Assembly (NCBI GenBank): GCA_964017185.1
Contig: OZ024871.1
Span: 11,028,214-11,092,213, forward strand
Source: Rugalucina vietnamica
Taxonomy: Eukaryota > Mollusca > Bivalvia > Lucinida > Lucinidae
Direction of reading: 5' to 3'
DNA: 64,000 bases
The notes below the pieces were generated by a model. The model was given only the letters and a program-made list of their open reading frames with translations. It searched no databases and had not been told where the DNA came from. Below, one piece after another: positions 4,046-63,756 of the stretch; within the stretch, counting starts at the first letter, position 1, and every line of letters starts with the position of its first letter. Position numbers and translations under genes: made by a program.

Positions 4046-4119
4046 AAAAAAAAACCTCTTGAATAAATCGGAAATGAAAACTTCGCAAAATATAAGTCAC
4101 GAGAAAATATCCGGAGTCA

Positions 4120-15742: not shown

Positions 15743-16498
15743 CTATCTCCTTTCCCTGCTTCTACTTCTCTCCCTCCTCCTTTCTCGTGGCTCCTCCCTC
15801 CTCCTTCTGTCCCGGTCTTCTCCCTCTTTTTTCTCTTGTCCTTCCTTCTGCAGTCTATCCAGTCTCTCCTCCATCTTCTTAATTACCCCTTCCTGTAGGC
15901 TGTTCAATTCCTTCAGTTGTTCCATGTACTGGAACATGCTGTCTATACACTGTACCATGTCTCCTTTTAACGTATCAACTTTGCCTTCAAGCCTGTCCAA
16001 TGGCATAGGGTCTGTTTGTGTGAACCTGTGCACTAGAGTTTTTCTTACTTCTTCGAGTACAACCCTCTTAGGTCTTAGATCCATGCTCTCCTCTCCTAGC
16101 AATTGGGGTCTTAGATCCTCAACAATGTCCTCATCCTTTCCTGTTCCCGTGACGCTAACCCTTGTCCAGTGTCTCTAGAGTCCTCCCTCGAAAGTTTCAC
16201 TATATCTCAATAAACCTCGGAGTAGCAGAATTTATGATCTCCAGTCCGTCAAGCCCCATTCTACCTTCTCCAGATGTGCAGGTGATTCCACATGCCTCTC
16301 CAATTTCTTTTTATCCCCAGTCTTGAAATCACAAGTAACACAGACATATGGTATGTCGCTATCAACAACGTGCTGGCTATAGAAATGGACTTCCGCCCGG
16401 CTCTTGTTTTCAACGTATCGACATGGAATGCACCGGTAAGCTCTCCCTCTGGATAAGATGTATTGAAGCTGACATGTAGCCATACTGAATTGATACAT
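15743..16498 (-). pseudogene. ORF3: zinc-finger/coiled-coil/RS-tail protein, frameshifted
   Basis: Starts at the ATG complementary to 16496-16498. N-terminal part has two C2H2-like fingers: C23-x2-C26...H38-x4-H43 and C53-x2-C56-x12-H69-x5-H75, all ligands present. After about residue 85 the frame is lost at around 16232. The C-terminal part resumes at 16102-15743 with a predicted coiled coil (KVDTLKGDMVQ, YMEQLKELNSLQEG) and a tail rich in Arg, Glu and Ser (RERRRERSRSRERR). It follows the integrase end and precedes the LTR, the position of env in some Gypsy relatives, but has no signal peptide or membrane segment. Role unknown; nucleic-acid binding is inferred. Confidence 0.7.
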
Positions 16499-31536: not shown

Positions 31537-34049
31537 ATTTAGTCGATGACACAAAGCAGTACAAAACAAAGAAAATCGCTCTTCCTAAGATGTTACAATT
31601 ATTGAATTGGTAGATTAAAAGACAAAATTGTATACGAGCCGCAGCTTAACAACACCAATAAATTGCGAGTTAAGGACAGTCATTCCCATCGCTAAAATAT
31701 TGATAGTAGTCATGTTTGCAAGGCATTTAGCCTACCTTAGGAAAATGTTACAAGCATAATCTGCATGTCACCTGAAAGAAGAGAATATGTTCTTTCTACT
31801 GATATATGTATGTGTTGAGAATATTTTATAGCCTTTTGTTGACTCAATGAGACAATTTTAATTGTCTTTTTGCAGTTTATTTGCATCTTCTTTTTAAGTT
31901 TTTGAGTTAGAGGTACCTTTTTCTGTGACAGCCATCAGTTAATAGAGATCTACAATAATGTATCAGGGATTTTCGAAATAATGCCTCAAAGCAGAAATAC
32001 AGCACATTTTGTCATGCAGTTCATAATTAATTGGTCATCCCTAACAAAATCCTTGATAGATCAAGAACCGTTCAAAATCAGGAAAATCTGTGATACATTT
32101 ATCTTTGTCATACTTCAAACCACCCACCCACCAAATATTATGTAGATCTGTCCATAAATAAAAGAATTATACCACTTTGAAATCGAAGTTCTTTTGAAAA
32201 TCCAATTGTCAGATAAACCTTAAAACTGTTTGATGATACAAAATGTCTATAATCCTCTTGAATAGGTAGATTCTAGAACATGGCATCTACACACATCCAA
32301 TCAGCACTCTGGAAGACTTTGCTACACACCTTTTGGGCTGGTCTGCTTTATCATAGTAGGCCAAAATTATGAAAATATTGTTTATTTTAACCAATAGCCT
32401 GATTTCAAGTCACGAATACATTTCACGGTCATTAGTTAATGACCTGCCCTAAGTAGTGGAACATTCTCCAGGAAATCTTCAAAAGGGAGGCATAATCTGC
32501 TATCCCTTAATGATGGATGTGGAAAACCAACTGTTACAGGAAATGAATGGATTGGGGCAAGTTTATTGCCTTTTTACTGTCTTCAGTATGTCTGATGTTA
32601 GCCTTTGCCTTGGGAAAACCTATGTACATCCAAGCCCGAGAGGTTGGATGCAAACCATGGCTTTGAGTTTCATAGTTTACATTATTACACTGTTTACATT
32701 GAAATTTGAAATTCATCAACTACATGTAGTAAGATTATACTAGATATACAGTAAAGAGAAAAAAAGAAAGAAAAGAAAAAAAAATTCTGATCGAGCTTAT
32801 GCAACCAATTTGAGAAAAAGATAAGTTAAGATAATACATGGACTAATCTTCAGGGTTTCGGACCAGGTCCGACACAAACCGGCCTATACAGCTACATGAC
32901 ATGGTTAGAAGCTTGAAGTTTTGGATCTATGAAGAAGAGGAATTGTAGTATCAGTGAAGCAAAAACAAAGATGCTGATCAGCTGTGCAGTTACTGCACAG
33001 ATGATCTCTGCCTTTGTTGTCGTATATATATAGTCAAAAATCCAGTTTTCTCATGACGCAGCTCAAATATAATATCATGAGCAATGAATGATGCTGTGTA
33101 AAAAGAACAATGCCCCACTGTAAGAATTACATGTGTCTAGGCCATTTAACGGGTACACAAACTAACCAGTTTCTAATAATAGGGATGTTTAAATGTGTAA
33201 AACAAAGTCCTGAACTTTGCAGCAGAAACACAGCTAATCTTTTCTTTATTTTATTATTATTTTTTTTTTTTTTTCATTTTATTTTTTTATGTATTGTGCA
33301 AGAACTAACACAGGTTTTCTCAAGACAAGACAGTTCTTGACTGTCTAAGTTGATTAATAGCCTACTGGCTCTTCAGCCTCCTGGTACAGAAAAATCTTTA
33401 TAGTGTGTGAAATCAATTGGCCATTGGCAATCAGTGGTAAATTGATAGAACAAACTTATCCACATTTTACAGTTACTTTGGAAATTTTATCAAATTCTAG
33501 CATTTCTGACAAAGATATGATTTTAATTTTTGCACATGATGTAGAATATACTTAATGTATTTATAAACTATCAGTTTTGAAAAAAGAGCAAAAAAAAAGT
33601 GTCAGTGACGTCTGACTGTCCTTAAGCGAAACCTTAGAATCGTGGTTAGCATGTAAGTAATGCTGGATCCTGAAGGCATAATTATTGCAATCAAATAATT
33701 TATTGCCTTTGAGAATAGTGTGGTTTATTTTCATTATAATAGAATTTGATATGACGAAAGCACAGGTTGTGCTTATAAAAGGTTGTAAAAGGGTGGGTGT
33801 GCAAAACAAGCACCGTTACCTAAGAGGTGTGTCAGTATAAGAAATACCTTGGTATGCGTCGAGGAAAAAAATCAAAATGCGTTTGAAAAATATTTTGACA
33901 GAATATAAATCAAAGTTTGACTTTGTATTAAAATAAACGTAGCATATATACTCGGTAGCATTTTCTGTTTGATTAAACTTACGAACGGTCTGAAATATCA
34001 AAAGGCAGAAACTAAACTCACCAATATCAGTCATCGCAAGCCGTAAAAT
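31537..34049. other. Upstream region of the first GPCR
   Basis: No second gene is supported. It contains Rep-F at 32860-33115 and a T-rich run near 33260-33275. The proximal part presumably holds the receptor promoter, but no clear TATA/Inr arrangement can be assigned by eye. Confidence 0.4.
32860..33115 (+). repeat. Rep-F copy 1
   Basis: Matches 37720-37985 and 63105-63370 at moderate identity: GACCAGGTCCGACACAAACC, then GTGAAGCAAAAACAAAGATG, CTGATCAGCTGTGCAGTTA and TGTGCCCCA-like words in the same order. No coding potential is conserved. Confidence 0.6.
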
Positions 34050-34363: not shown

Positions 34364-35426
34364 TGCAGCTTTCACACTTACCACGATTCGACCACCAATC
34401 GGGACCATCGTATCCAATCGTATCAGATCGCATCACATCTTGATATCAATCGTGATAATCGGGCTAATCGTGGAAACATTTTTGGCTGCCAAAAATTTTG
34501 CCACGATTACCACGATTGGCGGGACTATCGTGACCATCGCATCAGATCGTATGACATCGTAACAAATCGCAACAAATCGTATCTCATCTTGTTCCTAAAT
34601 CGCGGTGATCGGGATCGACCAAAACACCGCGATCTGTTGAGATGAGTTGCGATCCCCTACGATTTGTTACGGGTTACGATTCGAGAAAAAATGCCTGGCC
34701 CGATAAACTACGAGGCGATGCGAATGACTTCCGATAGGATACGATCAGATACGAGTAAATGCGATGAGACACGACAAGCCACGCTTTTGCCACGGATGCT
34801 TACGATCTGTTACGAATTATCAATACATTAAATACATCGGGCAAGATAACTTTTATTCCTTAATCAACAACAGAGAAGTAAATATCAATGTGGTCCTTTT
34901 CAGTATTAATTCGTAGTCTGAAGGATGACCGGAGATGGCAGCAGAGACAGGGATGGAAAGGGGAAGGATAATGCACATGTCGCATTCTCGTCATTCTCTG
35001 CTCCTCCATCTTCAATGTTGTTTCGTCTTCAGAGATTAAAAACGTAATGAGGTATATGTTTGTTTTCGAAGTAAATATACCAATCGCGGTCTCATCGTGA
35101 CACCGGCAATCGTGGCCACAATCACCAAAAATCAAGCCAACTATCGTAAACTATCGCAACATATCGTATCAGTTCTTGAGACTCGTACCAGGACGCATCT
35201 AAGCGTATCAGTTCGTATCAAATCGCGGTCAAGTATCGTGATAATCGTGTCAGATCGTGTCACCAGATTTTGACCGATCGCCACCCTATCGTATCATATC
35301 GCAACAGATCGTATCCAAACGCAACGACTCGTATCAGAACGTCAAATTTTGGCAAAATGTCCCGATTAGCTGCGATTTGTCAATCGTGGTATTCGTAATA
35401 GATCGTGCTCTAGTGTGAAAGCCGCA
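34364..35426. mobile_element. ATCG-rich MITE, PIF/Harbinger-like, 1063 bp
   Basis: Ends TGCAGCTTTCACACT and AGTGTGAAAGCCGCA are inverted repeats, flanked on both sides by TAA (34361-34363, 35427-35429). Beyond the first 15 bp, similarity between arms continues patchily (TACCACGATT, AATCGGGAC). Both arms are packed with short words such as ATCGTATCAGATCGCA. An unexplained middle part (about 34850-35100) has a frame of 91 codons with no ATG at its start and no family resemblance. No transposase is recognisable. Confidence 0.7.
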
Positions 35427-35429
35427 TAA

Positions 35430-36930
35430 TGAGAAAGACCATCATTATTTCTTAAATAGGTTCGTTTGTGTTTGTGAGTTCTTTGATGGCTGACTAGGCC
35501 AATTCTAGCTCTAAACTCGCGGTTGCAAGTAGAGCAAGTCAGTGTCATGGGATCAGCTGGTGGCCCATTTGCAATTGGTATTGGCTTTGCGTTCTCTGCG
35601 TTTTCTTTCAACTTCACAGATTCTCTTTTTTTCATAGAGCGCTGCTGCTTTGTTGATGAGACCTCGCCACTTTGATCACTCCTGTGCAGTCTGTTCAATT
35701 GGTATGTCGAAATCCTTCAGAGAGGCTTTGAGGGTGTCTTTGTAGCGTTTCTTCTGGCCACCTTGAGAGCGCTTTCTCTCTTGTAGTTCTCCATAGAAGA
35801 CTCTTATAACATGGCCAGTCCACCTTAGCTGTGCTAGCTTTAAGACAGTATGCATGCTTTGCATCCCTGCTTTCTTCAGGACCTCCGTGTCTGTAATCTT
35901 GTCTTGCCACTGGATTTTTAACAGCTTTCTCAAACAGCTTAAGTGGAAATGGTTAAGTCTCTTTGCATGACGCTGGTATACTGTCCAGGTCTCACATGCA
36001 TACAAGAGGGTTGGCAGTACCACAGCCTTGTAGACTTTCAGCTTGGCGTCAAGCTTGATTCCATTTCGCTCCCAGACATTTGCACGGAGTCTTCCAAATG
36101 CCACACTGGCTTTTGCAATTCTGGCAGTGACCTCATCTGCTCTGGAAAGAGTGCTTCCCAGGTAGGTGATAACAACAACAACTTTCAGTTTTTGTCCATT
36201 CACAGTGACGGTTGGTTCATTGTACGGTTTTCCTGGTCTTGTTGGTGTACTACCCCTGTTTTTTGTGCTGATTGTAAGATCATAGTTATCACATGACTGT
36301 GAGACTTGATCCATGGCTCTTTGCATTTTTGCCTCTGAGCTGGCATTCTTTGCATAGAGGAGCTCATCTAGCACATCAGTCTGCACCTTAGTTTTGGCTT
36401 GCAACCTTCTAAGGTTGAATATATTACCATCAAAACGCTACCTGATTGGAAAACCAGTGTCACTGTCCTGAAAAGCAACCATGAGCATGGCAGAAAACAT
36501 CATGTTGAACAGTGTTGGTGCCAAAACACAGCCCTGTTTGACCCCATTCGTTACCTCAAAGGGTTCAGAGAACTCTCCATCATTTTGAACACGTGATTGC
36601 ATGTTATCATGAAATTGTCACACTTTTGCTATGAATCTGGATGGACAGGCAAACTTGGCCATAATTTTCCAGAGTCCATCACGACTAACTGTGTCAAAAA
36701 GCTTTGGTGAGGTCGACAAACGTCATGTATAAATCTACAATCTGTTCTTCGCATTTCTCCTGTCTATTGTGCCTCTATATTTTCTGAGTCCACATTGACT
36801 TTCTGGGATAAGTCCCTTCTGATCAAGATGAACATTCATGCGGTTCAACAGAATTTTGGCATTTGAAGTAGGCAGCAATGCAAAGCATGTATACAGTCTT
36901 AAAGATGGACTGTCCATGTTATAAGAATAT
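35430..36930 (-). pseudogene. LINE RT remnant with C-terminal zinc finger
   Basis: From 36930 leftwards: RT finger piece (LLNRMNVHLDQKGLIPESQ), a palm piece with a frameshift (DLYMTFVDLTKAF), then LLYAKNASSEAKM, where the family normally has YADD between LLYA and KN. Next are the thumb and connection region (LPTLLYACETWTVYQRHAKR, WTGHVIRV, GGQKKRYKDTLKASLKDFD) and, after a frame change at about 35690, a C2H2 finger CSTCNREFRARIGLVSHQR with two His at the end. Several frames and the missing catalytic pair make it non-functional. An almost identical copy lies at 60814-62315. Confidence 0.85.
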
Positions 36931-38079
36931 TTGATGAGCTACTTCCAAAGAAAATCTTCTACAGAGATTTAGAGGACAGAGGCGCTCTCAATGCGGCCAA
37001 AATAAATAAAAACGTTCCACACTCAAAGCCCCGCTAAAGACTTCCAACACACCAATAAGGTCGTGGGCATAGGCTGCACAGGATCGATCAGAGCAACAAA
37101 GGAGCGGCTTAGTATATGATGACTTGTGTGTAAAATTTAAAGAAAATCCATGCTTTAGTCCATTTGTAAGAACACCTCCATGACCAAACATTTATTTTAC
37201 ATTGGCACCGGCTTGAAAGGCTTTTTTTGCGTAAGTAAGTTTTGTTTGTTATCAAAGTTATTCGGGTGAGTGATTTTTCTTTATTGTAACAAATGTAATC
37301 ACGTATTCTCATGGAGGCGGCGGTCTTCGGAATTTTCGTCCTTGTAAGACACAGATAGGTCTGCTCTTTTTCAAAACTAAATCAATGATTCATTGTATTG
37401 TAAAATAATACTGAAGGAATTGTATCAAATAATAATGAGCCAAAGACTGTGTTGAGGTGTCGGTCGAAGTAAATGCGTCTCTTTTCAATCGCGCTATTTC
37501 ACACGTATTTTCTCTTAACGAGGCTAAGTATTGTCTTAGAATCACATGTAAAATCAAAACGAAAACAGAAATAACAGCAAATTTACAGATTACTTCTAGA
37601 AACTGGTATTTTATTGGAAATTTAGACGTGTTTCATGGAATCTGAGACAGTGTCCTCTCATTATGGTCATTGCGGTGTATTGATTTGAGCCGCGACGCGA
37701 GTAAACCAGTCATCATGTTTTACGACCAGGTTTGGTACAAATCGGTCTACATACAATCTAAGAAGGAAGACAGAAGCTTGAAATTTCGAAGAAAAGGAAG
37801 AGAGGGATTGTAATATCCGTGAAGCAAAAACAAATGCACTGATCAGCTGTGCAATGTTTACACAGCTTATCTGCGTCTTTGCTTTCAAATATGGGGAAAT
37901 CTGATAGTTTTTTTTTCTCCATTATGGTCATTATCATAGTTAGGGTGTATTTATTATGAATACAATAAGCTGTGCCCCATAGAGAGGAATAATTTCTGCT
38001 CGTTTTACGATTAGATCAGGTATGTAAGGCACGCTGTGCAGCCGCAAAAGATAGCCAGATACTTTAAGATTTCGGATTT

Positions 38080-38082
<3 letters not shown>
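36931..38082. other. Non-coding part of the duplicated segment, with Rep-F
   Basis: Rep-F copy 2 occupies about 37720-37985. Short open frames here (for example 37667-37888, minus) are identical in both duplicates simply because the DNA is, and show no protein-family features. Confidence 0.5.

Positions 38083-38162
<80 letters not shown>
38083..38162. repeat. Compound (CT)n(GT)n microsatellite
   Basis: About 42 bases of CT followed by 38 of GT. The duplicate at 63468-63538 has a shorter CT part, showing the two copies are not read-for-read identical. Confidence 0.95.
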
Positions 38163-38164
<2 letters not shown>

Positions 38165-38389
38165 TCGCAGCTTGTTCTTAATATTCCAGCATGTGAAAAC
38201 ATGATATTTTATACAGCGACCTCATTTTACAATGCCAGAGCATAAAGATTCAAATGTAAATGAATCCTCTTTCGTTCGTTGACTTTTTGCACTTTGAGCC
38301 GGGTTCGTCCATACCAGAAACTTTTATCCGCATCAAACTGATCGGATTAACTTGATCCGAATTCGCATGTTCGCACTAAACAAAATGGT

Positions 38390-38720
38390 CGGGTGGGAAT
38401 ATGGGCCCCGCCCAATGGGACCTAGGATAAATAGATGGACTGCCTGTACCTCCAGCTACTGACTGATCATCTGATTACTGGTTAATCGCTCATGGCTGAG
38501 CCTGCCCAGGAAAAGTGGTTTAGTCAAACCATCCATACATATAAGCCTTATTGGCTTAGTTGAGTGGTTATATTTATGAAGCACATTTTGAGTGTCATGA
38601 CATCCTAATGTTGGGTAAAAGTCCCATAAAATGGAGGCAACGTCCCGACATGACCATTGCTGTTGACTGGGACGTAAAGCATCAATGCAAACAAACAAGC
38701 AAACAAACAAACAAACAAAT
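38390..38720 (+). repeat. Rep-B, clearest full-length copy
   Basis: Runs from GGTCGGGTGGGAATATGG to GTTGACTGGGACGTAAAGCA and ends in an (AAAC)n tail (38690-38719). The A-rich repeated tail and the lack of coding capacity suggest a SINE; the pol III boxes are not convincing. Confidence 0.75.
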
Positions 38721-44816: not shown

Positions 44817-45036
44817 TCATCATCATCATTTATATTTGGGGCTCCTGGCACAAGTGGGTGGGTGGGGAATAAATGGTATTGGATATCTCATTGACCTAAC
44901 CATATAAGCATGAATCATGACCATATCTTCATATCGGAATAATCAGGCAACTGTACCAGAGGCTACGGCTGTGTGGGTATATAACGGATTTTGTTCGGGC
45001 TTCAGATTTATACGAAATATAGGTGCTACCCCTACA
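44817..45036 (-). repeat. Partial 3' LTR, diverged subfamily
   Basis: Matches only the first ~220 bp (minus strand) of the 748-bp LTR, starting TGTAGGGGTAGCACC after the purine tract AGGGGGTAGT; identity about 75-80%. The outer end cannot be located. Confidence 0.7.
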
Positions 45037-45191: not shown

Positions 45192-45745
45192 CTATTGCCT
45201 CTCTCTACTCCTGCTTCTCTCCCTCCTCCTTTCACGTGGCTCCTCCCTCCTCCTCCTGTCCCGATCTTCTCCTCCTCTCTTATCGTCCCTCTGAAGTTTG
45301 TCTAGTCTCTCTTCTACCTTATTTATAACCACTTCCTGTAACCCGTTCAATTCCTTTAATTGTTCCATATAGGTGAACATGTGAGTGATGCAGTTGGTCA
45401 TGTCATCATTCAAGCTTTCGATTTTTTCCTCAATTCTATCAAAAGACATGGGTATTGTTTGTGTTCCCCTATATCTTCTCTGGCACCTTCAATTCCACTC
45501 TCTTCGGGGTTAGAATCATCTCCTCACCCTGCCCAAGCAGCTGAGGCCTCGGATCCTCCAGCACGTCTCCATCCTGTAACCCCTCCGTCCTACTCACACC
45601 TATTCAATGGCGGGCCGAATAATCCCTCGACATTCGCACTATGTCCCGCCCCACCTCAATGTAACGTGGCGTCTGTGAATTTATAACTTCCAAGCCATCC
45701 AGACTCGTTCCCAATTTCTCCAAGTGTCCCGGAGACTCCAAATGC
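45192..45745 (-). pseudogene. ORF3 second segment, from a diverged subfamily
   Basis: Starts in the second zinc-finger region with HLESPGHLEKLGTSLDGLEV, repeats the middle of ORF3 (TPRYIEVGRDIVRMSRD, EDPRPQLLGQGEE) with a stop, and after a frame change continues at 45449 with the coiled coil (IESLNDDMTNC, YMEQLKELNGLQEV) and the Arg/Ser/Glu tail (RERRRERSRSRERQ). It is about 70-75% similar to the equivalent part of the other ORF3 copies and duplicates the section already present at 45750-46000. Confidence 0.7.
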
Positions 45746-45749
45746 GTGT

Positions 45750-46226
45750 CGAGTTTTTTCTTACTCCTTCGAGTACAACCCTCTTAGGTGTTAGATCCAT
45801 GCTCTCCTCTCCTAGCAATTGTGGCCTAAGATCTTCAACAATGTCCTCATCCTTTCCTGCTCCCGTGACGCTAACCCTTGTCCAGTGCCTCGCTGAGTCC
45901 TCCCTCGAAAGTTTCACTATGTCCTTCCCTATCTCAATAAACCTCGGAGTAGCAGAATTTATGATCTCCAGTCCATCAAGCCCTGATTCTACCTTCTCCA
46001 GATCTGCAGGTGATTCCACATGCCTCTCCAATTTCTTTTTATCCCCAGTCTTGAAATCACAAGTGACACAGACATATGGTATGTCGCTATCAACAACATG
46101 CTGGCTGTAGAAATGGACTTCCGTCCGGCTCTTGTTTTCTACGTATCCACATGGAATGCACCGGTAAGCTCTCCCTCTGGATAAGATGTATTGAAGCTGA
46201 CCTGTAGCCATACTGAAATGATACAT
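45750..46226 (-). pseudogene. ORF3 first segment: two C2H2-like fingers
   Basis: Starts at the ATG complementary to 46224-46226. Ligands C23, C26, H38, H43 and C53, C56, H69 are present; the last ligand is Asp75 here but His in the other copy. A linker follows (SATPRFIEIGKDIVKLSRED, EDLRPQLLGEESMDL). At about 45757 the frame passes into the junction with the diverged segment and ends as nonsense at 45681. It is about 95% identical to 16.08-16.50 kb. The conserved paired fingers argue for RNA or DNA binding; this is inference. Confidence 0.75.
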
Positions 46227-46257
46227 TGTCACCTACTAAGTTTTTGTCGATTTTTTC

Positions 46258-46289
46258 TTGACCTTGACCTTTGACCCTTGACCTTGACT
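46258..46289 (-). promoter_or_regulatory. AGGTCA half-site cluster upstream of ORF3
   Basis: Same four half-sites and spacing as 16531-16562, located between the pol stop codon (46290) and the ORF3 ATG. Confidence 0.4.
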
Positions 46290-46563
46290 CTAATTACCCC
46301 TTATACATTCTCTCGTTGCTCTGTCCATCCATTTTGGGCTATTCTGTCCAACATATCTCTTCAATTTGTCGTGATGCACCACACGATTATCTCCCTTTTC
46401 CAAGCCAATTAAGTATGTCACATCACTGAGTCTCTTGAGCACCACACATAGTACATATTTCGGCTGCAACTTTGGACTGATTCTCAACACCCGCTTTTCA
46501 TGTAGATACCAAGCGCATTCCCCTTGTTCATAGCGCAAGTGTTCAAGCTTAGTGTCATATGCA
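46290..46563 (-). pseudogene. Integrase C-terminal tail, separated by the MITE
   Basis: AYDTKLEHLRYEQGECAWYL through RVVHHDKLKRYVGQN to the pol stop codon at 46290-46292. An open frame continues into the MITE to 46754 by chance, adding a foreign N-terminus. Confidence 0.85.
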
Positions 46564-46565
46564 TA

Positions 46566-47599
46566 CGAGGGTTGGGATTTAAGTTCGTAGACTTTGGCTA
46601 CTAATTGAATATTGCAGCATTTATCCGATATTTGATGCATTATTATAAAGAAACAACGTCTCCTTGTTTCGTGTTTACAATATTTTACAAGACACTTTGC
46701 GCAGTGCTCATAAAATGGTATCCATAGCAACCTAGGTTTCGCTACCCGGGGCACGTCGAATTTTTAACAATTCTGAAGTTTTGTGGCGTTGAAGAACACA
46801 CCAATGATTATCATATTGTAAACCAAAACTTGAGCTAAATCAGTTTAAGGCATTGCAGTATCATGTCGTTATCTCAGTTTAAATTTTTGAGCGATATATC
46901 GACCACTTGCTTTGTTATTGGAGAAAATGTATGGCCAGTTGCGCTGCTTGGACAAGAAAAATGGCGTTAATAGACAACGTCGAAACAACAGCATTGATCA
47001 AATCTTATGTTTGATTAGCCAAAATACCGAAGGAAACATTCAAAATCATAGGAATATGTTGTACAGTTGTGGAAAAGATCGTGCAGTGGTATTTTAAAAT
47101 GGTATGTGAGATTTCAGATGGAGGTACTTGAATTTTAACGCTGAGAAATGCACTCGTCTACAATAAGTCTTCAAATGCTACGGCCAACACTTTTGATTTA
47201 AAACACTGATATGCATGATACGCATAGAAAGTTATGTATAAGAACTATATCTGATGATCGCAGTATTTCCACAATAATAATTCCGAAATCCCTGAAGGAA
47301 ATCTTGCAAATAAGTAAAGGCATGGCTTGTTGTTTGGTTACAAACAAGGTGTTTTAATGCTGACACTTATTGAAATTTGACGTAGTTTTGACGTCAGAAT
47401 TTCCACGACGTGCCCCAGGTGATGAAAGGTCATCGTGTTTAATTAATTGTTGTGCGAATACCGTTTTGAGTAGAACAACGCTTTATACATTATATGATAG
47501 GTAAAAGAATGTATTTTCAGATTATAGCATTTTAATTTCTGTGTGACAGACATTTGATCTTTTACAAAGCAAGTCTACGAACTTAAATCCCAACCCACG
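46566..47599. mobile_element. Tc1/mariner-like MITE, 1034 bp
   Basis: Inverted termini CG(A/T)GGGTTGGGATTTAAG... of about 30 bp, flanked by TA on both sides (46564-46565, 47600-47601). The uninterrupted integrase at 16.84 kb shows the pre-insertion sequence GCATACTTG, confirming a TA target duplication. A second inverted pair (GGGGCACGTCG at 46748, CGACGTGCCCC at 47406) lies inside. No transposase or DDE/D motif is encoded; the longest internal frame is 61 codons. Confidence 0.85.
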
Positions 47600-47601
47600 T
47601 A

Positions 47602-48977
47602 CTTGTGTCGCTTCGCCGCGTTTCCTAAGTGTTCGCGCGCAATGTCATGTGCCGCCTGCATCCTATCTCTCAACCAGCTGACATACTCACCATATGAGTT
47701 TATAGACTGATCTTCACTATCACATGCTTGTCCACTTCTGAGTTCTGCTGGAATTCTTACCTCACGCCCCAACATTAACATATTAGGTGTAAATCATGTT
47801 GACGCACTTGGAGTTGCCCTAAATGCGGCTGTCAAACATCCGAGGTTCAAATCCCAGTCCTCCTGTTCACCCTTTAGATAGGCTTTAATGATACGTACCA
47901 ATGTCTTGTTGAATTTCTCTACCTGACCATTACCTTTTGGGTTTCTCACAGATGTACGAGTCTTCCTCACTTCCATCAGTTTACATAGTTCCTGAAATAT
48001 CTGACTTTCATAGTTAGACCTAAGATCACTGTGAATAGAAAGTGGTGCACCATACCTTGCTATTACCTCATTCAAAATCACGTTAGCTGTCGTCACGGCT
48101 GACTGGTCGGCTACCGCAAATATTTCTACCCACTTACTGAAATTTTCTGTAACAACAAGAATAAATCTGTTGTTCCTAGGTGTGATTGGGAGTGGACCTA
48201 CAAAGTCAGTTGAAGTTGTAGCACAGCACCTACCCCTAGGCTACCTAACGGTGCCTTCGGCTTCTTTTGGGGAATCTTGTCAGCAGCACATATATTACAC
48301 GCCAGCACCCAGTTATTTACCTCATCTCTCATCTCAAACCAGTAGTATTTCTGTTTTACTCTTTCATATGTCTTCCGACAGCCAAAATGACCACCCATTG
48401 TAGCATCATGGACTTCATTCAAGACCTCCTTCCTGAGATTTCTGGGAATACGTAGCTGAAAATACTTACTAAGGCCATTTTTCTGAACATATTCTTTCAC
48501 AATCAACCCATTGTCTAGGCTAAGTGAATTCCAGATAACCCAATAATGCCGTGTGGCTGGGCTTTTTGTCACAACATCAGTACTTGAGGGTCGCTTACGT
48601 CCCTTCAACAGATTTTCATACACAAATGAAATGTCTGGATCCTCTTTCTGCATGCTAGCCAAGTTTTCATCTATATAATTACTCAAAATTACCTTTCTTG
48701 GTAGAACAGCTGGGGTCTCAGGATCTCGCCTTGTTTCACCCCCTGTAGCCTGACCTTCATGTGTCTCTTCTTTCTTACCATGAGATCGTGTTTCTACAGC
48801 TCTAACATCTTCTCTGACATCAGTGTTTTCCCGGACTTCAGTGTGAGTTGTCTCCCTTTCACCATACTCACCATTCTGTAAATCACAGCTCAACTCTACT
48901 TTACTATTGCCCGTTCGAAGTCTTACCAAACTCTGAGGGTCTTCTCCACATACACGGGTTGCAACCTCTTCACACAT
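47602..48977 (-). pseudogene. Integrase: linker, zinc-binding domain and catalytic core
   Basis: Read from 48977: acidic linker, then an HHCC zinc-binding module (VHDATMGGHFGCRKTY...CNICAADK, ending about 48255). A frameshift near 48225 follows, then the core with STDFVGPLPIT (first Asp), LSIHSDLRSNYES (second Asp) and GNGQVEKFNKTL (Glu), so all three catalytic acids are present. Another frame change before LMLGREVRIP (47781) leads to the C-terminal region, broken by the MITE. Integrase joins the cDNA to the chromosome. The same region is deleted in element 1. Confidence 0.85.
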
Positions 48978-49079: not shown

Positions 49080-50649
49080 TCAATTATTAATTGGGCCCAT
49101 GGACTTCGTAATACATGTCACCTGCTTAACACTGTGTTGATTCTCACCCTCTTCCAATGCTTGGTAACTCACTTCGTTGCTCATTCCTGAACTTCCCAAC
49201 AGTAGAGTACTCTTCATATCTATAGCTTTCTTTTCACACTTCTTACAAGGCCAGCATTTCAGCGGCTCTAAAGTATCTACTTCATTACACTGACAGTCCC
49301 AAGGACTAACACAACGACACATTCCATCTGCATTACAATGCCCACCGGATGTTCGATAACTCACCGTAAAGTCATATGCGGACAGAATTTCTAAGTACCG
49401 GGCTAACCTACCTCTAGGTTCTTTGAAACTGAACAAGAATGTCAACGCTTTGTGGTCTGTTCTTACCGTAAACTTCCTTCCTAGTAGGTACTGCCTAAAG
49501 TACTCAACAAAGTACCGTATACTGAGTAATTCTTTGTCTGTCACACAGTAGTTTCTCTCTGCTTTATTCAGCATCTTACTACCATAAGCTATCACCTTTT
49601 CTTCACCATTTTGGATCTGGCTGAGCACCCCTCCCAAGGCATAGTCACTTGCGTCACAGTCTAGGATATAGTCTCCAATGTCTAAGGGATAGGCCATTAT
49701 TGACGGACTTAACAGTGCTTCTTTCAGCTTCGCCAAGGCTTCCTCACATGCCTCTGTCCATTTGAACTCTTTACCCTTCTTGGTAAGATCAATTATCGGC
49801 CGCATCATGTCTGAATATCCCTTAATGTGGCGCCTGTAATAACTTCCCATACCTACGAGTGCACGAGCTTGAGTCGCATTCTTTGGAGCAGCAAACTGCA
49901 TGATCTTAGCAATATTATCAGGGCTCGGCAGCACACCATCGGACGAGACAACATGACCAAGGAAATGTGCCCGATCACAGAACAGAAAACATTTGGAGCT
50001 ACGTAATTTCAAACCAGCCTGCTCCAACCTACTTAGAACCATGTCTAATCGGTCTGCATGTTCTTGAAAGGTGTCAGCAAAGACAATTATGTCATCAAGA
50101 TAGACCAGGAAGCTTATCCAATTTAGCCCATGTACAATACTTTGAACGCAGCGCTGAAAAGTTGCACTCGAGTTTGTCATTCCCATCGGCATAGTACAAT
50201 GCTCATACAAACCATACTTTGTGATGAATGCAGTCTTGGGGATATCTTCCTCTTTCACTGGGATTTGGTGGTATGAACTTGTAACATCTAGTGTACTAAA
50301 CAACTTTGCACCTGCAACAGCATCAAGGCAATCCCTGGTTCTGGGAATAGGAAAATTGTCCATGTTTGTTACTTTGTTTACAGCCCTGTAGTCAATACAT
50401 GGTCTTACCTTGCCATCTTTCTTTCTCACCAAACAAATTGGACTGCTCCAGCAACTATGTGATAATGCCCTGTTTCTCCATAGTTTCAATTACCTTGCGT
50501 TCTTCATCAGCGAAAGCCAGCGGTACGCACCTAGGTGGACAACGGACAGGTTTCGCATCTCCAGTGTCAATTTCATGGACGCCATATTCAGGTGAGTCTC
50601 TGCCTAAATCATACTCATCACGTGAAAATGCATTCTGATGCCTTACCAA
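49080..50649 (-). pseudogene. Reverse transcriptase and RNase H
   Basis: RT starts near 50649 (GVHEIDTGDAKPVRCPPR, RKVIETMEKQGII), shifts frame at about 50460, then runs uninterrupted for about 460 codons: SPICLVRKKDGKVRPCIDYR, LDVTSSYHQIPV, FLVYLDDIIVF (catalytic YLDD), FLGHVVSSDGV. RNase H follows with DYILDCDASDYALGG and VRTDHKALTFLFSF, then SGGHCNADGM and a Cys-rich spacer WPCKKCEKK. The YLDD and RNase H acidic residues are intact; only the one frameshift separates fingers from palm. The long uninterrupted stretch suggests moderate age. Confidence 0.9.
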
Positions 50650-51600: not shown

Positions 51601-53296
51601 CTAGTTTAAAGGTTGAGAACTGTTTGAACCCATTCCCTGATATGCTTGAGTGTTACCGTTATTGCGAGAGTAAAATGACCCACCCCTGTAATAAGCCCCT
51701 TGGTCTCTCTGTCCACGTAAACTGTTGAAGTGCCCATACTTCCTACCTTGTTGCTTCTGAGGACATTCTCGAGCAAAATGACCTGCTTCAGAACAATGAT
51801 AGCACGCAATGTCTGGTCTCACATAGCTCTGCTGTGGAGCAGCACTCGCACTATTACCTTTCTGTTGTATTTGTCTCTCTAAGCTGACTATTTTATCTTG
51901 CAAAGCCTTCAATGTCCAGGTCACTATCTGAGGACTGCTTCTGCCCCTGCGTGTTCTTTTCAGCTTGTTTACCTGACTCAGCTTTAACATAACTCTCCAT
52001 TTGACCAACAACGGCCTTGCGTGCTCTCCCACCCCTCTTACATTTTACCTTTTTATCTACCTGAATGGCTCCATCGCTCTCATCATCACTATCCTCATAC
52101 TCAGTCTGATCAAACCTGACTGCACGTGCATGTTTTCTACCCCGCCGGTCACCATTGCCATCTCCCATCAAAGGACGATGCCTAGTCTCCTGAAAATCTA
52201 CTACCTGGTAAACAGCCTCATCAATGTCTCTGGGCTTCTTGATGTACTCTACCTGAAAACGAGCCTTTTCATCATACAAACCATCGAGAAACCTCCTAAG
52301 AAGGTCTTCACGCCTCGTCTCTTCATCTCTATTTGCATGTGCCTTATCATACAACCGTTTTAATTCTGCAGCATACTCCTCAACAGATTCATTAGCTTTC
52401 TGACAGCGATGACTGAATTGGGCTCCGTATGTTTTCTTTGTAACCACAACTCTGAACCTACTATTTAATTCAGACACCAGGTGAGCATAATCTCCCCTTA
52501 CTTCACGTCTAAGTTGACCAAATACAAACTCACCAGCCGCTCCCTGCAATCTGGGTAATATCTCATCAAGCCGATCTTCGTCAGTCCAGTTTCTCCTATC
52601 TGCCACTTCTGTAAACCTGTTAAACCATACATTCCAAGGTTCCTTACCTGTGAATGTGGGTAACTTCGTTATCTCCCTTTGTTGCACAGGATCAGTGATT
52701 CTCTGCTGCCTCTGAAGTGGATAATCATCTCCGTCTTCATCAGTATCTGAAAATCCTGACCTACTATACACTGATCTTCTAGGATTAGGTACCGACCTAC
52801 GACCCCGTTCTATTCTATTTGACCTATTTTGCGCTGTAATTACCCGTTCCGCAGCCTGCCTTCTCTGAACCTGTTCTAGAACATTGTTCAAGTTTTGATT
52901 TATAGCCCTATTTGATTCTTTAATTGTATTTACCAAGGCGGTAGTCATCACCTTCATTGCCCTAGTGACCTCATTATTCTCTCCTGTCCTCGGCCTCGCC
53001 CCATCACCCTCAGCATGCCCTTCAGTATCTGTCTCTATACCTACATTTTGCTGCATAATGACAGGATCCTCATCTCTATCACCGAGTACCTGAAAAGGCG
53101 GCGCAGGTTGCACAGGTCCCAAAGGTTGCTCAAAATTAACATTTTCTCTACGCGTATTAGCCCCCTCCCTGACCCCCATATCAGATTCTTCAGCGCTATC
53201 ATGCTCATTTTCTACGGCACTTAAAGTCACATCACTGCCACTGCCTTCACCTTCAACCTCATTGTCTCTCCTTTTCAAATTTCTCCTTTTGCCCAT
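51601..53296 (-). pseudogene. Gag polyprotein
   Basis: ATG at 53296 (MGKRRNLKRRDNEVEG), an acidic, charged N-terminus, then a capsid-like region with the retrotransposon-gag signature EPWNVWFNRFTEVADRRNWT and YAAELKRLYDKAHANRDEE (about residues 215-350). At about 51893-52000 the frame shifts, and the nucleocapsid part continues in a second frame with a CCHC knuckle CYHCSEAGHFAREC and a Gly/Tyr/Arg-rich tail to 51601. The 140-base overlap of the two frames may reflect a mutation or programmed frameshifting; the copy in element 1 is too short to decide. Confidence 0.85.
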
Positions 53297-55343
53297 ATTT
53301 ATTCCCTGAAATTATAGTTTTCAAGTCTTATCTCTTTGCAAGCAAATCTGAGCCTTAATTCGTTAAAAAAATAACTGTATCGTTCAACCTTAAGTTTGGG
53401 GTTCGTACATTACCAGCGTCCTTAAGGTACCTCTGTATCTTGCTTCTCATCTTTCTGTAACTGTACCATAACCATGACCATAGACTGTATCTGTACTACA
53501 CCATCGCTGCAACAGTGTATTGACAGATCCCACTTCTCTGACACCATAAAATGCAAGGTCACAGGGGTCAAGGTCACTGGACTAGGTCACCAGACCTTCA
53601 CCGCTATAAACCAGGCAGACAGTAGGGGGTTACGGGAGTGAGTTATAGACGGGTGCTTGCTATCGTGTAATTGACCAGTAACTTCCGACTTTTCTGTTCA
53701 TTGCTTTTTCCTGATCATTGCTTTCCTGATCATATACATCACGATGGACCGAGCATGGGCTGAACGATACAGTTTCACTTGTGATATGATTGACAAGACA
53801 TTTAATTTGATCAACATGACCATTAACTGGGCTGACATGACCCTTGATTAATTGAATGGAGAGACTTTTGAGGAAGAAGGGATAATGAAGGCAGTTTCTA
53901 CTTAAAAAATGTATCCTTTTATTTATAAACACTTAATGCTCAAATTCCACCCATAAAGGGTTATATATATATGATTCTTTCCCCTCTTAAGCTGCGCCAT
54001 AGTCCATAGAATAGCTCCCCTCGCGTCGCGCCTGGATTCGCTTAACCATAGATAGCTCTGTCTACTTCTGGGTCAAGGTCAATTCAGGTCGTGGTAAGGT
54101 CAAGGTCATATGAGACAACCCAGCTCTTCTTTGAAGCATGACTTCATAATACGAAGAGATGAACAGCCTCATTCTCGTACATTATGTATTTAATGTGATT
54201 CTTAAGTATGACCAATATTACTTAAACATTTATGAAAGTATGTAATTATTACTTTAAATGGCATTTATAATTCTACGTGTTCTGAGCACAGCATTACTTA
54301 TGCATAAACCTTACAGAACTTGATTTGCTTGGTTACAAGAGCATGGAATGGCTGTATTTAATATTTCAAAACTGAGACCATAAATATTCAGGGGCATCGT
54401 ATTAGCATAACTAACACGTTGATAAGGGAGCACTAGCATAACTAGCACATTTTAAGGGAGTACTAGCATAAACTAGTACATATCTAGGAAGTTCTAGCAT
54501 AACCAGAACTTAAACATTACAACAGAAATGTAACCAAGCCTATATATTGAATGCTTAATTGCCAATTAACTATTAAACTTTAGCTTTAAATGTATAAACA
54601 ATCACTTTAAAATTCATTTAAGAAAAGCCTTAATTAAAAATCGTGGTAATTATTCATATTTAAATAGTAATAAACTTTAAACTCGAAACAAAACAAGAAA
54701 GGATAGCATTATCTTTAGTCCTCTCAGGCTCTTTTGGGTTGTCACTGTATACACATAGAGGTCACGATTCAGGTCGATGTCTATAAATAGCTCCAGGTGA
54801 TCTCCAAATACGTAGGGGAAGCCCTCACGTGGTAACTGTCATCTATTCATAGTACTGTATTCATACGCGGTGTCGCCCAAGGTCAGCTAAGGGTCATTGC
54901 ACCATCACAGTATTGGAAGAGCCTGAAAGTCTAAGATCAAAAACAAGAAAACATTTCAAATTAACAAGAACAAGATAAATCAAACCCTGAACTTCGCAGA
55001 ATAACAACTGTAACCACACATCAACAGCCATCCATACTTCTTAGCTCTGCGGTTGCCTAGAATGAAAATATAGTCCTAAACCACGAAATCTAGTTACACT
55101 ATTTCAATTCGAAAGCTGGCTATTGCGAGAGTGTGTCTGCTCCAGGGGATGCGGTCGTTTATATATGGGGGGGGGGCGCTGTACGAACCTGTTGGATTTC
55201 TGTGGGTCATCATCAGTGTGACTGGTGTTTTCTCTCTCTTGTACGATTCTGTAGGATTTATGCAAATTCAGCGTGGCTAATTTAAATATAACAGCATTGT
55301 GACAAAATGAGAAAGGTGAGATTCTCCTCTCGCCTACTTCACC
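53297..55343 (-). other. Long untranslated leader of element 2
   Basis: Collinear with 12865-14861. Differences include a ~110-bp insertion at about 54931-55040 (AAACAAGAAAACATTTC...) and fewer 30-bp tandem units (54421-54485). AGGTCA half-sites occur near 53565 and 54070. Confidence 0.75.
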
Positions 55344-55905
55344 TCGTTTTTGCCAGCTCTTGGGAGTGTTTTTCCGGTATAATTTTCCCCCACTAAATTA
55401 AGACATGTATATTGATATCTATTTCTGCTTTTTTTCAGATGACAACCAGTACAAGAGACTATCTTAAATCTTTTTGTGTCCATTATGATAATTATGTGTA
55501 AATATTTTGGGAAAAAGAAAAAAAAAAAAAAAAAAAACTCACAAGAAAAAGCAAAGTATCAAAAACAAGATTGACACGGCTGTAATCCAATATGGACGTC
55601 ATAAACAGCTTATATGTAAATGTTGTGAAATTATTTGACCAACTCTGTCTAACATGTTAGTGGTTAAAATCGTAATATTTCATGTTGCTATATTATTGTA
55701 TACCAAACAAAACTTTAATTATTGTAGATTATTGTGACATAATTTTTTAATAATGTATGTGCTACTGAAACACAATTATTAAAGGTTGAAATGGTATCCG
55801 ATATTCTGGATCACCCTGTATGTAATATTAGTTGTTTAAGCTTAATAAAAAAAAATCCCCACGAAATTTGTTCTTATTATTATAACGCAGCTGTATACAC
55901 GCACA
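55344..55905. other. AT-rich intergenic, A-run
   Basis: An interrupted A-run lies at about 55512-55537. No LTR, gene or known repeat recognised. Confidence 0.5.
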
Positions 55906-55909
55906 TTTT

Positions 55910-56830
55910 CCACATTCGAATGCATGGGCGACATATTTTGACATTACCGTTAAAATTGTAAAGGTCATCAAAGGACCATTCTTTATAAACACATTGTAGT
56001 ACTCTTGTCCCCGATGCTACATACCAAGTGTCGTTGAAATCGGTCTAGCGATTCCGGAGATTAGATTTTTGAAGGGATTTTACCATATATGGGCATGGCA
56101 GCCACCTTGGTCATGTGACCTGGATTATTTATAAACACATTGCCCCCCTCCCCCATATACATGTAGATGCTTTCTAAAAATCGGCTTTGATTGGCCAAGC
56201 GGTTTCAGAGAAGATCTTTGAATGATTATGGTAATACACATGTATTTTGCCCCGGGGTAGGGGCAGACCATCCCATGGGTCCAGTTTTTCAAGATTCATA
56301 AATCTTTATATTAGTCTGTTTGCCAATTTCCTGCAAGATATTCCCTTCGAACGGCATTTAAACAATCCCCCTTCCATTCACATGAATGGGCGACCTATGT
56401 TGACATTGCCGTAAATCACATGGTCAGGATTTATAGACACATTGTCGTACTCCAGTTCCTGTTGTTATATGTCAAGGGTCGTTGAAACTGGTCTAGTGGT
56501 CCCTATCCAAAGATGCTTTTACCATATTTGAGCATGGCGACCATCTTGGTCATGTTACATGAATTATTCAAAACATTGGTTCCACCTTCCTATAGATGTT
56601 TCATGTCAAATTTGGCTTGATTGGCCAAGGGATTTTAGAGAAAAATATCTTTGAAAATGGTGGAAGACGAACGCCAGGTGCTTGCCTATCGTTTAAGCTC
56701 ACCTGTGAGCCTTTGGCTCAGATGAGATAAAATTACCTTTTTATTGCATTGAATAATGTGAACGACGACTACGGACGCCGGAGCCTTGCTATTATACGCA
56801 TTAATAAGTTCGGCTGAGGTGAGATAAAGT
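55910..56830 (+). repeat. Rep-A copy 3: two units plus hairpin terminus
   Basis: Units start near 55910 and 56330 and carry GGCATGGCAGCCACCTTGGT and GATTGGCCAAGCGGTTTCAG words. The hairpin AGCTCACCTGTGAGCC...CAGATGAGAT is at 56696-56727. A second, partial terminus (GACTACGGACGCCGGAGCC, GGCTGAGGTGAGAT) follows at 56765-56825. Confidence 0.8.
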
Positions 56831-58626: not shown

Positions 58627-59486
58627 TTAATCCTGAGATCCTGCATTCGAACCATTGCTAGTTGAAGGTATTTCACCAAATATCTTCTTAACAACGCGAG
58701 GCGAACCTTTAATCTCACGAAAAGACATTTTCTGCGACTGGCTAGCCGTTGATTCAGACTCTTTCAAACACGCGTCTCGCAAGCATCTCATCAGTATCGA
58801 TCGATAAGCTTTGGCGAACCTTTTCTGGGTGCCGAGGTAGATCAACCAGTTGAACGAGGGGTGTAGGTGAGCGAACGCCGTTATAATAACGTGAGCCTCG
58901 TGCGGGAACGTGTCGTTGGCGTCGATGACCATGATTAAGGCATATGGTGTCCAGCACGTTACAAAGACGGCGTAGACCAGGAACAGCGTCTTGGCGACGT
59001 CAAGCTGCATGTTGCCGTGTGCAGAGGGTGGCTCGTTGGCACCAGTCCCTGGGGTCTTCGCTCGGTAGCTCGCCATTATCTGACTTTGTCTTCTGACGAA
59101 GAGAAAGATTCTAAGGTAGCAGAACCCAATCACGAGACAGGGAATCCAAACTAGTGTGACGGAGAAAACAACCGTGTACGGGTAGGTGGCCATGCGATCC
59201 CAGATACATTCCAGACTCTTTCTATCAAAACTGTGGTCGCCGATTCCAGCCTGGTTAAGCACTACTAGAGTAATGCCGATGCAATATATCGCGCAGCATA
59301 ATCCAACGCATTTCTTCGTGGAAAAGATTTTGCTGTAGTGCCTGTTGTGACAGACGAAGATGTAACGGTAGAGGCTCATCATGGCGATGGTCATCAGTGA
59401 CGTCACACAGGAAATGGTACAAATGCTAGCGATGATCTGGCACAACTTCGGAGTGCGGTCAAAGAAATGCTCCCCCTCCAGTTTTG
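58627..59486 (-). CDS. Second melatonin-receptor-like GPCR, exon 2 only
   Basis: Acceptor TATCTTTCAG ends at 59487 and the exon begins in phase 1 with the same CAAAACTGGA as the first receptor, then runs ~285 residues to a stop at 58627-58629. TM3-TM7 are present: KLCQIIASICTISCV, SLYRYIFVCHNRHYSKIFS (YRY), QAGIGDHSFDRKSLECIWDR, FVTCWTPYALIMVID and HPSFNWLIYLGTQKRF (NWxxY). About 75% of residues match the other receptor by eye; the C-tail is longer (KMSFREIKGSPRVVKKIFGE). The frame has no lesions, so selection has probably kept it. No TM1-TM2 exon is visible between here and the window end, so exon 1 lies beyond 64000 or is missing. Probably expressed at the membrane; ligand unknown. Confidence 0.82.
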
Positions 59487-60152
59487 CTGAAAGATAAAAC
59501 ATAATGAGTTAAAGTACTTGAACAAATTATAAGGGATGAAAATAAGACCCTTTAAGAGTAGTAAACACATTAATGAGATAGGAGATGGGCCGTAAGGATA
59601 CGTCTTTCAGTTACACACAACAGTTTCATGTGATTTTCGATTGGAGCATTTCCAAAACTCGCCCATGTAATATACAGAGATTTTTCAAGTCGTTAAAGTT
59701 GAAACATTTCTTATAAAAAATAATGATATGTTTCTTATTTTTGCTCAAAACATAGACTGTGGGTATACGTTAGAACCGCTTCGCTAACGAGTACCAACAA
59801 TCTATGTTTTGGAGCAAAAATAAGAAAAATAGGTATACCCCTGCATGATACCCCAGTTTTGCTAAACAAAAGTGGGTTTTGAGGAGGTATATCTTTCATG
59901 GATATGTTTTCCTGATGGAGATGATCATTTTTTAATGTTAATAGTTGACAAGAATATAGCTTTGATAATGACTACACACTTAAACCAGGCGAGACGCATT
60001 CTGAATTGAGTTGCGGTGATGTATAATGCTAAAATGCTCCCATTTAAATCCCAAACAGGAACATTTTGAAAGCCCTTATCAATTTCAGTCAAAAACATTT
60101 TCTTCGAATTTTGGGGTAGAGAAACCTCGCTTTTTGACAAAATAAATAATCA

Positions 60153-60191
<39 letters not shown>

Positions 60192-60232
60192 TTTATTTTA
60201 TCTCTTGGATTTCAACTTTAAGACGCAAAGAA
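59487..60232. other. Upstream/intron region with hairpin and poly-T
   Basis: A long hairpin at 59731-59827 and a T-run at 60155-60186, 47 bp before the start of the duplicated segment. No exon resembling TM1-TM2 is seen. Confidence 0.55.
59731..59827. repeat. Imperfect palindrome, ~27-bp stem
   Basis: TTTCTTATTTTTGCTCAAAA at the left pairs with the right arm TTTTGGAGCAAAAATAAGAA with one bulge. An inner GTTAG...CTAAC pair lies in the loop. One arm recurs at 44340-44373, so it belongs to a dispersed family. Confidence 0.6.
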
Positions 60233-60813
60233 ACTTTTATTCCTTAATCAACAACAGAGAAGTAAATATCAATGTGGTCCTTTTCAGTATTAATTCGTAG
60301 TCTGAAGGATGACCGGAGATGGCAGCAGAGACAGGGATGGAAAGGGGAAGGATAATGCACATGTCGCATTCTCGTCATTCTCTGCTCCTCCATCTTCAAT
60401 GTTGTTTCGTCTTCAGAGATTAAAAACGTAATGAGGTATATGTTTGTTTTCGAAGTAAATATACCAATCGCGGTCTCATCGTGACACCGGCAATCGTGGC
60501 CACAATCACCAAAAATCAAGCCAACTATCGTAAACTATCGCAACATATCGTATCAGTTCTTGAGACTCGTACCAGGACGCATCTAAGCGTATCAGTTCGT
60601 ATCAAATCGCGGTCAAGTATCGTGATAATCGTGTCAGATCGTGTCACCAGATTTTGACCGATCGCCACCCTATCGTATCATATCGCAACAGATCGTATCC
60701 AAACGCAACGACTCGTGTCAGAACGTCAAATTTTGGCAAAATGTCCCGATTAGCTGCGATTTGTCAATCGTGGTATTCGTAATAGATCGTGCTCTAGTGT
60801 GAAAGCCGCATAA

Positions 60814-63463: not shown

Positions 63464-63467
<4 letters not shown>

Positions 63468-63538
<71 letters not shown>
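63468..63538. repeat. (CT)n(GT)n microsatellite, duplicate copy
   Basis: Shorter CT tract than at 38083-38162. Confidence 0.95.
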
Positions 63539-63540
<2 letters not shown>

Positions 63541-63756
63541 TCGCAGCTTGTTCTTAATATTGCAGCATGTGAAAACATGATATTTTATACAGCGACCTCA
63601 TTTTACAATGCCAGAGCATAAAGATTCAAATGTAAATGAATCCTCTTTCGTTCGTTGACTTTTTGCACTTTGAGCCGGGTTCGTCCATACCAGAAACTTT
63701 TATCCGCATCAAACTGATCGGATTAACTTGATCCGAATTCGCATGTTCGCACTAAA

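Follow-up and report, generated by a model that had tools for sequence, protein, structure and literature searches.

Accessory open reading frames of LTR retrotransposons are often viewed as sporadic captures. Among the described cases closest to the gene considered here, Cer1 is a Ty3/Gypsy element of C. elegans whose spliced accessory protein, CERV, is needed for the full-length RNA to escape splicing; the verified exon-5 acceptor of CERV is TTTCAG, and CERV is said to have no obvious homology outside nematodes, in the sections of the paper drawn on here (PMC10309623). The third ORFs of bdelloid rotifer LTR elements are typically expressed from spliced messages, according to the relevant sections of their description (PMC5408684). 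A zinc-finger ORF3 in a Gypsy element, or a class pattern like the one described below, was absent from the titles and abstract openings that we searched, a survey with subscription papers and Repbase outside its scope.

The locus analysed here is a stretch of 64,000 nt from Rugalucina vietnamica (OZ024871.1), which we call the window and in which all positions are numbered. It contains two decayed Ty3/Gypsy copies, both on the minus strand and each with a third ORF (ORF3) 3' of integrase (Table 1). Domain search finds gag with CCHC, reverse transcriptase, RNase H and integrase in that order in a window element, the arrangement by which Ty3/Gypsy elements are recognised. Copy 2, which spans about 20.8-15.4 kb of the window, is flanked by LTR repeats that are 94-96% identical; the 5' part of copy 1 gave no match to its own 3' LTR, and the integrase of this copy is interrupted by about 1 kb (47600-46566) that is missing from copy 2. 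The third gene that the sequence-only reading had placed between integrase and 3' LTR is present in both elements, although frame changes have broken it in both copies and it is intact in neither.

Table 1. Positions of features of the two Ty3/Gypsy copies in the window.
Feature	Position	Strand	Remarks
gag (PF03732) and CCHC nucleocapsid (PF00098), copy 1	51604..53296	-	two frames, Pfam
Reverse transcriptase and RNase H, copy 1	49083..50489	-	PF00078 E 4.3e-34, PF17917 E 4.5e-34
Integrase zinc-binding domain PF17921, copy 1	48201..48899	-	E 2.4e-21
Open frame with integrase end (Integrase_p58_C, PF22938), then ORF3, copy 1	46293..46763	-	E 4.4e-07
AGGTCA-type direct repeats, pol-ORF3 interval, copy 1	46250..46294	-	
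Candidate 3' splice site TTTCAG (46218-46213) and likely initiator ATG (46211-46209), copy 1	46209..46218	-	
ORF3 of copy 1, broken	45195..46211	-	stop codon 45194-45192
Finger part of copy 1 ORF3	46211-45684	-	open frame 46232-45684
Chimera junction, copy 1 ORF3	45755..45767	-	13-base overlap of L011-type and L018-type matches
Duplicated, frame-shifted middle of copy 1 ORF3	45783-45607 and 45603-45472	-	different frame from fingers
Coiled-coil and Arg-rich piece of copy 1 ORF3	45488-45195	-	back in finger frame
3' LTR start of copy 1, TGTAGGGGTAGCACC...	44848..45036	-	extent is the match to copy 2 LTR
ORF3 of copy 2, broken	15746..16483	-	fingers within 16507-16235, coil and tail 16174-15746

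The window has several other features. Directly behind the 3' LTR of copy 2 come the leader and the beginning of gag of a further element (15609-12750, minus strand), so that two elements seem to share one LTR. The segments 34843-38623 and 60228-64000 form a direct duplication with 99.5% identity at a distance of 25.4 kb, and a second copy of the copy 1 ORF3 lies 20.9 kb downstream with 99% identity; since the two offsets differ, there may have been more than one recent local duplication. Repeated sequence in several diverged units occurs at 3110-4053, 25153-27040 and 55905-56673. Seven-helix receptor-like ORFs at 29092-29826, 31165-31569 and 58627-59502 (minus strand), two of them related with 75% DNA identity, are probably host receptor paralogues.

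All eight zinc ligands of ORF3, two Cys and two His per finger, are invariant in 19 of 19 aligned relatives, and the profile of these relatives matches the paired fingers of Aiolos/Ikaros (E 5.9e-6), which bears out the two C2H2 fingers read earlier from the sequence. Taken singly, the window proteins match zf-H2C2_5 with E 0.0056 (copy 1) and 0.0019 (copy 2), the window ORF3 pieces and the relative L015 falling below the Pfam gathering score; families of the U1/JAZ type are tentatively matched by a few proteins (zf-met in 3/19, best E 0.012; jaz in 1/19, best E 0.038). An (I/L)xxQLL motif recurs as well, with QLL present in 15/19 ORF3s and in a mean of 0.3 and a maximum of 3 after residue shuffling. 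In the AlphaFold2 model of L015 the fingers have a pLDDT of about 90, residues 118-161 are disordered, and residues 166-252 form a single helix, in agreement with the coiled coil proposed before. The C-terminal part is basic, with an Arg-rich tail in the window copies. That ORF3 is not env-like also holds, as no membrane segment is found in the 19 relatives (maximum Kyte-Doolittle mean over 19 residues 0.26-1.42).

Structural alignments of finger 2, with Z of 2.5-4.2, include chains of pre-60S, TUT1-U6, TUT7-pre-let-7, U11 snRNP and spliceosome complexes; all Z values in this second look at Foldseek candidates are below 8, which according to the tool may indicate a common arrangement only. The same list holds 11 rows of DNA-binding Kaiso with rmsd above 8, and the sequence profile favours DNA-binding fingers (Ikaros, CTCF). 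A search of a viral fold library gave no match at E <= 0.001. Further motifs are limited to particular families: the LC8 core [T/V/I]Q[T/V][D/E], as defined in PMC3078936, in 7/19 ORF3s, RS repeats in 6/19 and KEN in 8/19. In 6 of 6 proteins of the near and g2 families the LC8 core occupies one and the same position, where the disordered stretch gives way to the coil; the sequence is that of these two families only and the disorder and helix are those of the L015 model only. KEN stands in the C-terminal part of L044, L049, L051, L052, L054, L055, L056 and L057, in several with KS(V/L) next, and might be a cell-cycle degron. Upstream of one ORF3, L049:4061-7870 is an open frame of 1270 aa with repeated GFVGPTVGRLTCRGGKNPVRS-like units.

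In the genome (1.09 Gb in 47 contigs), the mitochondrial COX1 uses AGR for Ser and AAA for Lys, a code that indicates an invertebrate. A search of this genome with the window ORF3 protein gave 88 matches. Twenty distant ones were checked, and tblastn finds an upstream integrase on the same strand in 18 of the 20, L056 having gag and L049 neither. Counting from the integrase side, ORF3 lies 3' of 75 of the 79 listed loci that are 44% or more identical to the reference L015 and of 0 of 26 less similar ones, the 44% line having been placed at the observed gap and divergent ORF3s near distant integrases being liable to escape the count. By identity to L015, an ORF3 is found 0-4.5 kb downstream of integrase in 20/20 (90-100%), 6/6 (60-89%), 49/53 (44-59%) and 0/26 (30-43%). 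These figures rest on 150 integrase rows scored of 2253 candidates, 109 of which entered the count, and on 109 ORF3 rows merged from lists of 88 and 69 with most second fragments and repeats omitted; the other 41 listed integrase rows (32-41% identity) have no ORF3 row within 8 kb. ORF3 is thus not restricted to a few defective copies.

The groupings {L044, L051, L052, L055}, {near family plus L034} and {L041, L042} appear in both the integrase tree and the ORF3 tree, the latter having no branch that reaches the tool's star threshold, and over 112 family pairs integrase and ORF3 differences are correlated (r = 0.67, mean ratio 1.58). At the family level, therefore, ORF3 has been inherited with its own element. 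The fingers, together with QLL in 15/19, are common to proteins that are 20-26% identical to the reference, which argues against a recent capture of ORF3. This third gene is old, belongs to one Ty3/Gypsy lineage and marks that lineage in this genome. Scans of a viral contig collection with the window ORF3, the window reverse transcriptase and two alignments, and of a prokaryotic contig collection with one of these alignments, confirmed no relatives there.

Between diverged ORF3s, GY94 omega is 0.00-0.05 in the near family and g2, 0.08 for L052/L054 and 0.19 for L049/L053, and omega = 1 is rejected in 9 of 9 such pairs (LRT 155-771). NG86 gives 0.00-0.16 for class E and 0.30 for L032/L038. Among recent copies NG86 omega is 0.61-1.23 for L039-L045 and 0.75 for L047/L048, with intervals that include 1, and 0.54 (0.35-0.76) for L043/L044; that omega is indistinguishable from 1 for the most recent copies in two families is what decay following insertion would give, and it does not speak for constraint. 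The sequence-only reading had suggested that ORF3 was kept by selection as part of the element, to be abandoned if dN/dS were near 1 in all copies or if only a few defective copies carried the gene. With the dN/dS check now run across ORF3, and with omega far from 1 between diverged copies and the gene at 75/79 loci, the claim survives both tests.

Deep ORF3 coding classes sit on near-identical backbones. Between the five classes of the near family (37 pairs), pol is 97.5% identical and the 3' flank 96.7%, compared with 69.7% (65.2-81.8%) for ORF3; within a class (8 pairs) the values are 97.2% for pol, 97.7% for ORF3 and 96.2% for the 3' flank, L021, with its non-homologous 5' flank, and the chimera L010 being omitted from both sets. 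Ten near-family copies have integrases 94.5-99.4% identical and 3' flanks plus LTRs 91.7-99.4% identical regardless of whether their ORF3s agree. In this family divergence sets in just past the shared TTTCAGTATGGC and ends around the stop codon, with extra indels in the 150 bases behind the stop codon in the L012, L013 and L011 classes; the last 150 bases before the ORF3 ATG are 91-94% identical for several copies, somewhat below the rest of pol. ORF3 dS is at least 3.8 or not estimable in six near-family pairs, 1.7 for L052/L054 and 1.1 for L049/L053, and integrase dS is 0.03-0.07 in six pairs. For eight pairs with close backbones the ratio of ORF3 to integrase differences is 12.2, as against 1.58 across families. 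About 6 kb upstream of ORF3s from two different classes the gag regions have 98.0% identity, and gag was not seen as a second variable region in L059, L060 and the window (96.4-98.0% identity).

Similar islands occur in other families. L032 and L034 of g2 have pol at 98-99%, ORF3 at 62-77% and 3' flank at 97-100%; between L052/L063 and L054/L061/L062, pol is mostly 95-99% identical and ORF3 67-83%, the edges of this island being graded over several hundred bases; and L049 and L053 have 3' flanks at 89-96% and ORF3 at 71-84%, their upstream parts not being homologous. The 5' flanks of L036 and L038 are likewise not homologous to those of their partners, and L043/L044 and L047/L048 have no island. 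An ORF3 at 82% identity to L052, beside others at 75-76%, suggests that the L052 family perhaps has three classes, a comparison of ORF3 only. Class counts in the four families are at least 5, 3, 3 and 2.

Flank SNPs and class E occur in all four gametes at 26/36 and 28/42 informative sites (11 copies, with the chimera included and L021 omitted); the numbers of such SNPs are 15 and 25 for class A, 9 and 6 for D, and 3 and 5 for B. The presence of four of the five near classes on two or more chromosomes makes an assembly artefact less likely, and copies of the L018-L022 class are scattered over C2, C8, C12, C2 and C3. Between near classes the fingers and the QLL motif vary least, so that no specificity-determining region stands out, and the coil and tail are 61-81% identical. 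Finger contact positions as the varying part are unsupported. Hypermutation of ORF3 is rejected because copies of the same class differ in ORF3 (97.7%) no more than in their flanks (97.2 and 96.2%). Selection for nucleotide dissimilarity beyond saturation is rejected as well, since at positions with the same residue synonymous codons match at least as often as they do after shuffling (for L015 and L018, 66 observed and 65.2 expected).

Copy 1 of the window joins two of these types. In the genome search, 45755-46226 matches L011-type ORF3 at 98% and 45192-45767 matches L018-type ORF3 at 93-95%. The overlap of the two matches means that the unit from the end of finger 2 to past the QLL motif is present twice, the duplicated unit (45762-45487) having 61% protein identity to the upstream one; from its sequence, we read this duplication as the trace that a template switch with microhomology would be expected to leave. 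Because copy 1 is a chimera of two ORF3 types, its identity to copy 2 is 93-98% in pol and the initial part of ORF3 and 77% over the ORF3 tail and LTR start. The divergence of about 25% in the 3' part that had been noted earlier is therefore real, and the division into two subfamilies rests partly on the chimera. Neither the chimerism of copy 1 nor the exchange of ORF3 classes among near-identical elements had been noticed.

In 12 of 15 representatives the ORF3 ATG has a YAG with a pyrimidine tract no more than 14 nt away, compared with 181 of 2405 other ATGs (7.5%), under a criterion chosen after the sequences had been seen and with representatives that are related to each other, three of which fail. 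Because a sequence resembling a 3' splice site precedes the ATG, ORF3 may be made from a spliced subgenomic mRNA. AGGTCA-like repeats also precede ORF3 in other near and g2 copies. In copy 1 these repeats (46228-46300) can pair with TGACCT repeats in the 5' leader (about 53540-53635, minus strand), with a duplex energy of -56.1; 60 randomised leaders give -39.0 +/- 3.0 (lowest -48.3), gag gives -34.1 and pol -40.5. They could be either a long-range RNA contact or nuclear-receptor-type sites.

As our leading though tentative reading, we suggest that ORF3 acts in the nucleus as an adaptor for the element's RNA, in the manner of CERV in Cer1. The nucleic-acid-binding adaptor proposed earlier fits the ORF3 data, and the fingers, a helix fit for oligomerising and the charged tail appear suited to a CERV-like role. 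Translation of ORF3 from a spliced subgenomic mRNA would make gag-pol an intron, in which case nuclear exit of the full-length RNA would depend on its avoiding splicing. Oligomeric nuclear ORF3 would bind unspliced element RNA through its fingers and basic tail, and bound ORF3 would help this RNA to avoid splicing, to be exported or to be packaged, as CERV does for Cer1; the LC8-type motif beside the coil may stabilise the dimer in two families. Template switching between co-packaged RNAs could then move ORF3 cassettes, and selection for difference, by allele-specific recognition of own RNA or protein, could keep several classes alive. Since the compared regions outside ORF3 are all shared, the differing feature would most simply be the protein or a target in its own coding sequence.

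Other functions have been weighed against the adaptor. ORF3 might instead be a targeting factor that binds DNA or chromatin, its fingers tethering the integration complex and its classes being target preferences, or niches. The profile match to DNA-binding Ikaros/CTCF fingers and the basic tail would suit such a factor, which also needs no cis partner elsewhere in the shared backbone, but copies of one class are spread over chromosomes, the fingers and QLL motif are the least variable parts between classes, and most structural alignments of finger 2 are to chains of RNP complexes, so that we think targeting unlikely. A role in countering host silencing, perhaps through tying up LC8 or RNA-processing factors of a small-RNA pathway, is improbable: the LC8 core beside the coil in the near and g2 families and the RS and charged tail are compatible with it, but the LC8 motif is limited to 7/19 and the strong purifying selection is not the signature of an arms race. 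That ORF3 is a captured host fragment or non-functional passenger, as the broken state of both window copies might suggest, is hardly credible in view of its ligands (19/19), its omega of 0.00-0.19, the shared tree groups and the 75/79 listed loci.

For the classes, we infer exchange by template switching and long-term maintenance. In its fullest form, a reading that we consider possible but doubtful, ORF3 would be a specificity locus with multiple alleles held in balance, comparable to a gene for mating type or incompatibility, in which the backbone is repeatedly homogenised by template switching and several very old classes are kept apart by negative frequency-dependent selection in at least four families of one genome, a balancing selection that is read from this single genome. 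Recognition of own RNA or interference with own type would either way preserve rare classes. The main alternative for the deep classes, rather unlikely in our estimate, is neutral introgression from sister families: mosaics would arise by rare switches from diverged relatives, divergence would then block further exchange within ORF3, and nothing would keep the classes apart. Window copy 1 shows such a switch, many flank SNPs occur in all four gametes with class (26/36 and 28/42 for class E), and a decayed integrase fragment with 79% identity beside the L023 ORF3 could be an older backbone. However, apart from this fragment and one of 55 residues at 82%, the other listed near-type integrases are 92-100% identical, so that intermediate sister backbones are scarce among the 150 of 2253 candidates scored, and saturated dS with at least 5, 3, 3 and 2 classes in four families would be hard to keep without selection. 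Quite unlikely, in turn, is the proposal that ORF3 limits or excludes elements of its own type, as a copy-number control through co-assembly of coiled coils from which rare types gain; the long helix of the L015 model is compatible with a coiled coil, frequency dependence would preserve classes and the backbone is freely shared, but the coil and tail of near classes are still 61-81% identical.

We return to the adaptor and the balanced locus in comparing ORF3 with known systems. In the present case a single accessory gene, which is not an envelope, is the mark of a whole lineage, and among the compared parts (gag region, integrase, reverse transcriptase in one family, 3' flank and LTR) ORF3 alone is old and deeply diverged, the rest being recent. 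Active maintenance of the classes would mean that selfish elements possess a counterpart of balanced polymorphism or of incompatibility types, testable by population sequencing. In retroviral envelope recombination (PMC10536682) a 3' gene is similarly exchanged on a shared backbone; the gene exchanged here codes for zinc fingers, lacks a membrane segment and is saturated at synonymous sites. MDG1 sORF2 is likewise accessory to Gypsy elements that lack env, and in some Lepidoptera it lies 3' of pol, but in the portion of PMC11952523 cited here it is a short membrane fusogen, unlike ORF3, which lacks a membrane segment. Bdelloid rotifer LTR elements likewise carry a third ORF of several non-envelope kinds; the kinds named in the available text of PMC5408684 are env-like, GDSL, DEDDy, CC and TM, with 'zinc finger' occurring 0 times in that text, and they are family-specific, DEDDy having been gained at least twice, whereas one kind of ORF3 runs throughout a deep lineage here. 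CERV resembles ORF3 in being an additional protein, with a candidate zinc finger, in a Gypsy element that lacks env, in a comparison of how the proteins work only; according to the sections of PMC10309623 used here, CERV is nuclear, is made from a spliced mRNA, has a leucine zipper and a basic signal, and is highly divergent between species. It differs in its C4-type loop, G-protein-like domain, N-terminus common with Gag and five exons (PMC10309623, same sections), where ORF3 has two C2H2 fingers, the QLL motif, a charged tail and one open frame. Alongside CERV, ORF3 offers another candidate answer to how Gypsy elements without env deal with unspliced RNA.
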